Positions 20,671 through 23,711 of a stretch of DNA of 64,000 bases are shown in pieces. Both the position numbers and the translations under genes were made by a program. Location: the NCBI GenBank assembly GCA_938091745.1, contig CALLJK010000009.1, positions 1 through 64,000 of the forward strand. Direction: 5' to 3'. Position 1 is the stretch's first letter; each line of letters starts with the position of its first letter. The notes beneath the pieces were generated by a model. That model was not told the DNA's origin and did no database searches. It worked only from the letters and a program-made list of their open reading frames with translations. The stretch comes from Candidatus Bipolaricaulota bacterium. GTDB lineage: Bacteria; Bipolaricaulota; Bipolaricaulia; RBG-16-55-9; DRXL01.

Positions 20671-21536
20671 TGACTGTGCTTCAGCGAGAGTCATGGCGCG
20701 AGAGCCTGCGCAGCTTAAAAGTCGCCACATGGCTGGGCTGGCAGATCGAATCGAACTGGACTGATCCGTTTCTCTTTGCCGTCTACTCGCTGATCAAGCC
20801 TATCGCCGGGGCGATGATCTTGGTCGTGATGTACTTGGTCGTCTCCGGCGGCCAGACGGACAACCCGATCTTCCCGTATATCTATCTGGGGAACGCATTC
20901 TATATCTACGTGGGCTCGGTGCTCATGGGGATCAGTTACGCCGTGATCGAAGACCGTGAGCACTACGGCGTTCTGAAATATATTTACGTCTCGCCGATCC
21001 AAGTCTATTTTTATCTGTTGGGGCGCGGCGTCGCCCGCACGCTGACAGGCACAATCGCGGTGATCATCACGTTGGTGTTTGGGGTGCTTGTCTTCAAGCT
21101 TCCCGTAAATTTTCTAAAAATGAATCACGCGCTCTTTTGGCCGGTCTTTCTGATTGGGCTGGCGGGGTTAGCGCTTGTAGGGATTCTTCTAGCGGGGCTG
21201 ACGCTCATCACAGCAAGACACAATTACTTCATGGGCGAGGCCGTCGCTGGAGCGTTGTATTTGCTCTGTGGCGCGGTCTTCCCGCTCGATGTGCTCCCCA
21301 AGGTTCTTCAGTATATCGGGCTGGGGCTGCCCATGACCTATTGGCTCGAAGGGGTGCGCCGGGCAATGCTCGGCACAAGCGTGAGTCCGGTGCTTGCGCC
21401 CTTTACTCACGAGACGATCTTAATAATTCTCTTCAGCTCGACGCTCTGTGTCGGGGCGATCTCGCTGGGTTTTTATCGCTGGTGCGAGCGCCGCGCCAAG
21501 GAGAAGGGGCTTATAGATATGCAGACGATGTATTGA
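20670..21536 (+). CDS. ABC-2 type transporter permease 2
   Basis: A 288-residue paralogue of the preceding permease with six predicted helices, an N-terminal cytoplasmic segment (WLGWQIESNWTDPFLFAVYS) and the family motif LLCGAVFPLDVLPK before the last two helices. The start codon overlaps the previous stop. The exporter substrate is unknown; the exosortase-like cassette that follows has its own promoter. Confidence 0.82.
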   Translation: MTVLQRESWRESLRSLKVATWLGWQIESNWTDPFLFAVYSLIKPIAGAMILVVMYLVVSGGQTDNPIFPYIYLGNAFYIYVGSVLMGISYAVIEDREHYGVLKYIYVSPIQVYFYLLGRGVARTLTGTIAVIITLVFGVLVFKLPVNFLKMNHALFWPVFLIGLAGLALVGILLAGLTLITARHNYFMGEAVAGALYLLCGAVFPLDVLPKVLQYIGLGLPMTYWLEGVRRAMLGTSVSPVLAPFTHETILIILFSSTLCVGAISLGFYRWCERRAKEKGLIDMQTMY

Positions 21537-21542
21537 TATAAT
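21534..21542 (+). promoter_or_regulatory. Extended -10 promoter of the exosortase-like cassette
   Basis: TGATATAAT, a consensus extended -10, ends 8 nt before the ATG at 21551. There is no Shine-Dalgarno, so the message is predicted leaderless. Confidence 0.6.
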
Positions 21543-21550
21543 AGGGTACT

Positions 21551-22075
21551 ATGAGCACTTTCGTGAAGATCCTGATCGTGATCGCGTTCATGGCTGTGCC
21601 GGCCCTGGCCCAACAGCCGCTCGTGGTGAAGGTCTCTTGTCGCGATAGCCAGACGCTCGCCATCGAGCCGGATCGTCTTGATTCGCTCATCTTGCGGGCG
21701 ACGGGGCGGACCGTCCAGTGGGAGCTGGAGACCGTGGGCTGTCCCCAGACGGTCTCGCGTGTCGAGATTCGCTTTGCCCAGACGAGCCCCTTCGGCGAGA
21801 CCCCCGCAGATAAAGAGCTCGTCGTGCCGGAGCTGCCCTCGCCGCTGCCGGAGAGCGTCCCTCTTGTCAGCCGCGAGATTTCCGTTGCTGGGGAGCATCG
21901 CTACGAAATCTTGCTCATGGATGCTGAGGGCAACGTCTTAAGCAAGCAACAAGGGCGGATCTCCGCACGCGCCATCGCGCCGGGGATGACTCTTCCTAGT
22001 TTGCTTTTGGCTGGCTTGGTCGTGGGGCTCTTCTTCTTGTTGATCCGACGTCGCCTCAGCGCGCTCTCGGCATAA
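21551..22075 (+). CDS. Secreted protein with C-terminal sorting-like helix
   Basis: A 174-residue protein with a signal peptide (about 1-21, ending ALAQ) and an Ig-like, two-cysteine extracytoplasmic domain (KVSCRDSQTLAIEP, TVGCPQTVSRVEIRF). The C-terminus has the sorting-signal layout: a short turn (APGMTLPS), a hydrophobic helix (LLLAGLVVGLFFLLI), then RRRLSALSA. A helix followed by arginines at the end is what exosortase and archaeosortase substrates carry. The enzyme gene lies 9 nt downstream, so I infer this is its substrate. I recognise no known family for the body of the protein. Confidence 0.6.
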   Translation: MSTFVKILIVIAFMAVPALAQQPLVVKVSCRDSQTLAIEPDRLDSLILRATGRTVQWELETVGCPQTVSRVEIRFAQTSPFGETPADKELVVPELPSPLPESVPLVSREISVAGEHRYEILLMDAEGNVLSKQQGRISARAIAPGMTLPSLLLAGLVVGLFFLLIRRRLSALSA

Positions 22076-22084
22076 TAGCATGGG

Positions 22085-22573
22085 ATGATTGGGAATCGTG
22101 CCCTGGTGCGGGCGTGGTTGGTGCTCATCGGAACTATCCTCGCGTTCGTGGTGCTCCAGCCATTGCTCATCTTTATAGGCTTTGTGCGCTGGGCTAATGA
22201 GAGCACTGCTCAACTGTTAGCATTCGCGCTGAGCTTGCTTGGTAGCCCCAGCTCTGCTGAAGGGACCATCGTGCGTTCTCAGCTCTTCTCGCTCGAGATT
22301 GTTTTTGAATGCACGGCGATCCTCCCGATGGTGCTCTTTGGCGCTGCTGTCGCGGCAACGCCTGCGGTGACCAACGCGAAACTTTGGGCACTTGCGTGGG
22401 GCCTGCCCGCCATTGTCCTCTTCAATCTTGTGCGGCTGGCGAGCTTAGTGTATATAGGGCGTCTCGCTCCAGAGGCGTTTGACACAGTGCACTTACTGAT
22501 CTGGCAGCCGTTGACGATTCTCTTTGCTCTGGCGCTGTGGCTGCTATGGGTCGAGCGCCGACGTCACTCATGA
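22085..22573 (+). CDS. Exosortase/archaeosortase-family protein, XrtH-like
   Basis: A 162-residue multi-pass membrane protein with the three residues expected of exosortases: Cys76 (FECTAI), Arg117 (FNLVRLASLVYIG) and His136 (DTVHLLIWQ). The C-terminal block NLVRxxSLxYxG...HLxxWQ resembles short exosortases of the XrtH class as I remember them. These transpeptidase-like enzymes recognise a C-terminal tripartite signal, cleave it and transfer the protein to an unknown acceptor. It sits between a likely substrate and a four-helix membrane protein. The Glu before Cys is unusual for the (A/G)C(S/N)G motif, so activity is inferred. Confidence 0.68.
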   Translation: MIGNRALVRAWLVLIGTILAFVVLQPLLIFIGFVRWANESTAQLLAFALSLLGSPSSAEGTIVRSQLFSLEIVFECTAILPMVLFGAAVAATPAVTNAKLWALAWGLPAIVLFNLVRLASLVYIGRLAPEAFDTVHLLIWQPLTILFALALWLLWVERRRHS

Positions 22574-23061
22574 CGAAGATCGTTCTCTTCGTGGTGGGCT
22601 GTGCTCTTGTTCTCACAGCGTTCGCGCTGGTGTGGCCGCTGGCGGCTCCTCTCTACGCGCAACTCCAGGTCTTCTGTGCCCAGCCTGTGCTTAGCTCTGA
22701 GCTGCACTTGAGCATAGACACTGATGGGATCGCTGTCTCTCGCGGCGAGAAACTTTTGACGCGCCGCGAGTTTTTGAGTTTCGGCGGGCTGGGATTGACG
22801 CTTGCTCTTTGGCTGCTGACGCCGGGCTTCTCGTGGAAGAAGCGCATACTCTGGGGAACTTTTGGGTTCGTATTGATCTTCTTCTGGCACGTGCTGGGGC
22901 TGTGGGGCTTGATTGCATTCGCTGAAGCTCTGGAGCGCGGGCAGGGCGGTGGGCTGATGACGCTGCTCTATAGCGTTATCGCTGTGGGCGACTGGGTTGT
23001 GCCCGTCGTGCTGTGGGGGGCGGTGCTCATCTCTTATCGGGGGTCGGGGGCTGCGCCGTAG
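22570..23061 (+). CDS. Membrane protein of the exosortase-like cassette
   Basis: A 163-residue protein with about four helices (IVLFVVGCALVLTAFALVW, LGLTLALWLLTPG, ILWGTFGFVLIFFWHVLGLW, VIAVGDWVVPVVLWGAVLI) and an extracytoplasmic loop of about 40 residues. The ATG at 22570 overlaps the exosortase stop (ATGA), indicating translational coupling. I do not recognise the family, but small companion membrane proteins accompany some short exosortases. The 3' end overlaps the VanX-like gene by 28 nt on the opposite strand. Confidence 0.6.
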   Translation: MTKIVLFVVGCALVLTAFALVWPLAAPLYAQLQVFCAQPVLSSELHLSIDTDGIAVSRGEKLLTRREFLSFGGLGLTLALWLLTPGFSWKKRILWGTFGFVLIFFWHVLGLWGLIAFAEALERGQGGGLMTLLYSVIAVGDWVVPVVLWGAVLISYRGSGAAP

Positions 23062-23711
23062 ACTGCGGTCTTGCGTCCTAGGCGCCAGGCCCAGCAGCTG
23101 TCGCCGTAGGACCAGTGCCACCACTCGCCAGCATAGTTGGTGAACCCGGCTTTGGTCATAACTCTGATGAGCAGTTCTCGGTTCTTGCGCGCTTCTTCGG
23201 AGATGCCTTCAGCGTACGTAGCGGCGACGGCGCGGGCTTTGGGCGTGCGCCATTTGTATGGAGACGTCATATCGAGTTCTTTGCCGTCGGGGCCGATCAG
23301 AGTGAGATCGATAGCTCCGCCGGTGCTATGTCCTGGGGGAGTTTTGATATCTGGGGGATGCACGAATCTATTCGTCAGCCGTCTGAGGACACTTTTAGGC
23401 GCAGTGGGATGACGGCGTTTCATGCGCCGATAGACTCTCTGATAGATTCTCTTTTGCTCTTCGAGGGAGCGGTAGGCGCTGAAGATCCCGAGCTTATAGC
23501 CCTTGGGGAGGAGCCGTGCGGCCTTCTGGAGCATCTGAGCGACGGTCTTGCGGGCGAAGAGCTGTTGCGGCTCCCCGGTGTGCCAGTTGGGCAAGACGAC
23601 GATGCGAGGGTCAAGCCCATTGAGCTCGACCAGCGGCTCGCCGGTGTCGCGAATTTGAATCTTGTTCAGCTCGCTGATTGGTTCAATAAGGGAGTTGCGG
23701 CGTCTGAGCAT
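23034..23711 (-). CDS. D-alanyl-D-alanine dipeptidase (VanX/DdpX family)
   Basis: A 225-residue peptidase M15D enzyme. The zinc ligands and catalytic residues are visible: PPGHSTGGAIDLTL (first His and Asp) and EWWHWSYGD (Glu and second His). The FSAYRSLEEQKRIYQRVYR segment precedes the catalytic core. There is no signal peptide, so it is cytosolic. The family hydrolyses D-Ala-D-Ala or related dipeptides from wall turnover or uptake. It lies 48 nt downstream of a dipeptide-type ABC permease on the same strand, an arrangement like E. coli ddpX with its transporter. A leaderless-type promoter precedes it. Confidence 0.88.
   Translation of the reverse strand: MLRRRNSLIEPISELNKIQIRDTGEPLVELNGLDPRIVVLPNWHTGEPQQLFARKTVAQMLQKAARLLPKGYKLGIFSAYRSLEEQKRIYQRVYRRMKRRHPTAPKSVLRRLTNRFVHPPDIKTPPGHSTGGAIDLTLIGPDGKELDMTSPYKWRTPKARAVAATYAEGISEEARKNRELLIRVMTKAGFTNYAGEWWHWSYGDSCWAWRLGRKTAVYGAAPDPR

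Follow-up and report, generated by a model that had tools for sequence, protein, structure and literature searches.

The closest described counterpart of the locus analysed here is the system of exosortase H (XrtH; TIGR04177), in which the enzyme occurs together with the IPTL-CTERM sorting signal (TIGR04174/PF18203) and an exosortase H-associated membrane protein (NF041730). No demonstration of cleavage or lipid attachment by XrtH was found in the accessible literature; the Cys-Arg-His set of this type of enzyme is familiar from the archaeosortase ArtA. Also already described are adjacent target–enzyme pairs, and enzymes matched to one target only, whose gene is usually a neighbour, have been termed dedicated systems (PMC3237569). 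The dedicated rhombosortase/GlyGly-CTERM pairs resemble the present locus in having one enzyme and one adjacent target with a tripartite tail per genome, but involve an unrelated protease family (rhomboid serine proteases) and an unrelated signal (PMC3237569).

A compact three-gene cassette

Within a stretch of 64,000 nucleotides from a Candidatus Bipolaricaulota genome (hereafter the window; source genome of 1.74 Mb, 92% complete), the three components of the XrtH/IPTL-CTERM system recur in the same order:

21533..21542, + strand: extended -10 element TTGATATAAT, separated from the substrate ATG by 8 nt
21551..22075, + strand: substrate ORF, 174 aa, with signal peptide, cupredoxin-like beta domain and C-terminal sorting domain
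21974..22072, + strand: sorting domain at the C-terminus, with IAPGMTLPS motif, hydrophobic helix and RRR; a probable diverged IPTL-CTERM
22085..22573, + strand: exosortase-superfamily enzyme, XrtH-related by profile score, 162 aa, with Cys76, Arg117 and His136
22570..23061, + strand: membrane protein of the XrtH-associated type (putative helper), four helices and a beta hairpin

The genes are tightly packed, as a preliminary description of this DNA had stated, with a 9-nt gap between the substrate stop (22075) and the enzyme ATG (22085), and a 4-nt overlap (ATGA) between the enzyme and the helper, which starts at 22570 and whose frame closes at 23061. The single consensus extended -10 proposed ahead of them also holds: TTGNTATAAT is matched once in the window, by the element listed above, with 0.16 matches expected by chance, and TTG[AC]TATAAT or TGATATAAT is kept upstream of the substrate orthologue in five further genomes, two of which belong to another genus. 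Since the -10 element and the substrate ATG are only 6 to 10 nt apart in three window-genus genomes, the cassette transcript may be nearly leaderless. All three genes display dN/dS values of 0.11–0.33, i.e. purifying selection, which indicates that the three ORFs are real, maintained genes. When the same three genes were sought elsewhere, the order substrate, enzyme, helper was recovered in five genomes, with a sixth locus cut by a contig end.

The cassette is met at its 3′ end by a convergent M15/VanY-type peptidase gene (window 23034-23711), which overlaps it by 28 nt, adjoins it in five genomes, and has a paralogue on another contig (G000:C29). An ABC transporter lies upstream at the four window-genus loci seen, but not beside the cassette of another relative (G007), and was rejected as a cassette component.

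An exosortase-superfamily enzyme related to XrtH

The second gene product scored 45.6 bits against the exosortase/archaeosortase superfamily model TIGR04178 (cut-off 23), and reached the curated cut-off of none of the named exosortase subfamilies. Its best-scoring single model was archaeosortase B (TIGR04144), at 75.5 bits or half of the cut-off of 150, and the signal named in that model, VPXXXP, is absent from the cassette. XrtH was the closest bacterial model, with 68 bits against a curated cut-off of 86, while Exosortase_EpsH (PF09721) gave 22.8 bits against a gathering cut-off of 25.7. On these scores, the enzyme is a superfamily member related to XrtH that cannot be filed as XrtH. The three residues highlighted in the preliminary description, Cys76, Arg117 and His136, are the same as those of XrtH and are invariant in an alignment of ten homologues with identities down to 35%. 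Neither outcome that it had named as refuting its reading, namely no match to an exosortase model or no conservation of these residues, was thus observed, and the enzyme is exosortase-like. Among named sequences, those closest to the enzyme come from metagenome-assembled genomes of Candidatus Bipolaricaulota (Acetothermia).

A sorting signal linked to IPTL-CTERM by intermediates

The window substrate ends in a tripartite tail comprising the motif IAPGMTLPS, a hydrophobic helix, and a basic RRR cluster. It lacks the TEWG of XrtH substrates and is unmatched by the IPTL models, with no match to TIGR04174 (cut-off 20.5 bits) listed at E 10. The preliminary description had concluded that it corresponded to no sorting signal that could be named, a view that does not survive comparison with relatives. 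Orthologues of the substrate were found in six of these, one of them with a true IPTL tail. Orthologous window-type tails read APGMTLPT and APGMTLPN in the window genus and VPALDTAG (G005), APALGTWG (G007), and APAMSTWG (G008) elsewhere; the last of these scored 16.5 bits over nearly the whole length of TIGR04174, below its cut-off of 20.5. The true IPTL-CTERM tail is that of the homologue in G009, which adjoins an XrtH. Tails from a second, ordinary XrtH cluster on contig C25 of the same genome and from its counterparts (hereafter C25-type) read PTLTEWG or PTMTEWG, with LPTLTEWG among the stages seen in relatives, and in an alignment of both types one proline and two arginines never vary. Because these intermediate tails occur in homologous proteins of relatives, the most fitting view of the window signal is that of an IPTL-CTERM that has diverged, rather than one unrelated to known signals. 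Assignment to MYXO-CTERM (12.8 bits, cut-off 20, E 0.12) was rejected as a chance similarity between tripartite tails.

The rest of the substrate is predicted (pLDDT 81) to form an N-terminal helix consistent with a signal peptide, along with a beta domain and a terminal helix. Residues 23-140 of the model resemble plastocyanin (Z 8.9, rmsd 2.8 over 95 residues), but no CxxxH-type copper site was seen in the alignment, and a copper protein was thus rejected. The conserved Cys28 and Cys63 more likely form a disulfide than a copper site, and the modelled plastocyanin-like fold gives nothing certain on function.

The accompanying membrane protein

The third protein is modelled (mean pLDDT 92.6) as four helices, in line with the preliminary description, together with a three-strand beta hairpin. 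Unlike its counterpart in the XrtH/IPTL-CTERM system, it was not listed against NF041730 at E 10 (cut-off 35 bits), and it had no match in the model libraries searched. When it was compared by hhalign with the proteins located after XrtH in other families, however, 98.3% was obtained over 155 columns, whereas an exosortase control reached 18% over 70; two of these proteins themselves scored 24 bits against NF041730, likewise below the cut-off. Five residues (Y29, A79, L80, R92, and H107) are invariant across 21 helper-type sequences, and both architecture and position directly after the enzyme match those of the XrtH-associated membrane protein. Judged by these profile comparisons, the helper is a distant relative of that family and not new in kind. 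A fold search of solved structures returned nothing convincing (Foldseek E 0.15 at best; best Z 5.7, in the range of helical proteins). In other families of this order, the helpers beside exosortases bear an additional SEC-C-like Cys/His tail, e.g. PCPCGSGRKYKHCCGK (L025 822-1490; L028 near 804-1613).

A second locus and a probable duplication of the cassette

The ordinary XrtH/IPTL-CTERM cluster on contig C25 consists, in this order, of an IPTL-CTERM protein over threshold, an XrtH paralogue that passes TIGR04177 (86.4 bits, cut-off 86), and four tandem helper-like proteins of the XrtH-associated type (L032 9239-11364), of which only one is found at the related G009 locus. Window and C25 enzymes share 46% identity and the same invariant residues. 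In the enzyme tree, window-type sequences from five genomes form one clade (support 100/100) that is sister to the C25 clade (98/97) within a single Bipolaricaulota family, with a branch of 0.82 for the window clade vs 0.13 for the C25 type. Both types are present in genera g1 and g3, so that the duplication probably predates the split between these genera. At the C25-type locus of G009, the order is again the same, with a homologue of the window substrate (E 1e-8) followed by an enzyme and then by one helper, which shares 42% identity with that of the window. This suggests that the whole cassette was duplicated.

C25-type loci differ between genomes in their number of IPTL-CTERM proteins. A gene for a Crp-type HTH protein (L032, G000:C25, 7030-7674) is situated ahead of the IPTL-CTERM gene of C25, and just before the latter is a perfect palindrome, TCTCTCGCGAGAGA (L032 7863-7876), which occurs once in the genome, is kept in L033 and L034, and is likely an operator. 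The C25-type exosortase of another genome (L040, G001:C11, 9050-9700) appears frameshifted in its second half, through either pseudogenization or an assembly error.

One enzyme, one recognisable substrate

A tail profile of 38 positions was built from six window-type tails. Each cassette-bearing genome yielded one strong match (E 4e-16 to 2e-20), although these six matches are the source sequences of the profile, and the informative part is the absence of others. In the genome of the window, no second convincing match followed that of the substrate, the next one (E 0.011) covering only profile positions 3-24 in a 319-aa frame. A further match in this genome lies in a polytopic ABC permease. 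The only IPTL-CTERM over cut-off in this genome is the one on C25. In each of two relatives that are ~93% complete (G007 and G008), a single exosortase hit was obtained, no IPTL-CTERM exceeded the cut-off, and no enzyme–substrate pair besides the window type was detected, while G009 harbours the C25-type enzyme and tail only. Across every genome examined, each enzyme type adjoins its own kind of tail. The genome-wide check of C-termini suggested in the preliminary description thus returned a single window-type tail, i.e. the single target per genome by which dedicated systems are defined (PMC3237569), within the limits of a 38-position profile that can miss diverged substrates and of a genome that is ~92% complete. 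The dedicated single-substrate system proposed there stands in this respect but was incomplete as a description of the genome, which also carries the standard XrtH/IPTL-CTERM locus. In a relative (G004), a beta-propeller-like protein whose N-terminus resembles that of a lipoprotein (L082, G004:C44, 1458-1547 in the contig) ends in PALSLWQ, a helix, and RR; given its match to the window-type tail profile (E 8e-4), it may be a further substrate, or the match may be due to chance.

Proposed mechanism and alternatives

Taken together, these comparisons make it very probable that the window encodes a dedicated one-enzyme, one-substrate cassette that arose by duplication of a whole XrtH/IPTL-CTERM cassette followed by divergence. 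This duplication would date back to an ancestor of the Bipolaricaulota family concerned, with enzyme and signal then diverging together. Export of the substrate would rely on its N-terminal signal peptide, and the C-terminal helix would keep it in the membrane, the arginine cluster facing the cytoplasm. The XrtH-like enzyme would read the short proline-containing motif outside the helix, and Cys76, assisted by Arg117 and His136, would cleave the tail, after which the new C-terminus would probably be passed to an acceptor that keeps the substrate at the cell surface. The helper would reside in the membrane with the enzyme and assist it. Cleavage, acceptor, helper role, and specificity are here all inferred. 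More tentatively, enzyme and signal may have co-diverged until the pairs no longer cross-react, leaving two orthogonal exosortase–signal pairs in one cell, with intermediates visible in sister genomes.

Had the enzyme instead remained unspecialised, the window and C25 enzymes would be interchangeable and both would process IPTL-CTERM and window-type tails, as their 46% identity with the same invariant residues, their homologous signals, and the still IPTL-like tail of G008 would allow. We consider this improbable given the consistent adjacency of each enzyme to its own kind of tail, the occurrence of only the window-type enzyme and substrate in G007 and G008 and of only the C25 type in G009, and the long branch of the window clade. 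Similarly unlikely is that the enzyme serves more substrates with tails too diverged for the profile: such short tails hold little signal and the G004 protein, with its lipoprotein-like start and PALSLWQ, helix, and RR ending, could be a case in point, but the next matches in the genome of the window are partial and weak, the one inspected over its whole length is a polytopic permease, and an enzyme adjacent to its target is the pattern reported for dedicated systems (PMC3237569). Finally, accelerated divergence after duplication could reflect an enzyme that no longer works as a transpeptidase or protease and serves the substrate only as chaperone or anchor, yet the three invariant catalytic-type residues and low dN/dS values make this very hard to credit.

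Implications

The dedicated cassette favoured here would occur alongside the ordinary XrtH/IPTL-CTERM type in the same bacterial family, where sister clades share catalytic residues and homologous signals. Substrate choice by exosortases is poorly understood, and sister cassettes with graded signals and enzymes to match provide a natural set for mapping the enzyme residues that read the motif. The minimal size of the cassette is also convenient for reconstitution, which could show what the acceptor is and how the associated membrane protein contributes.
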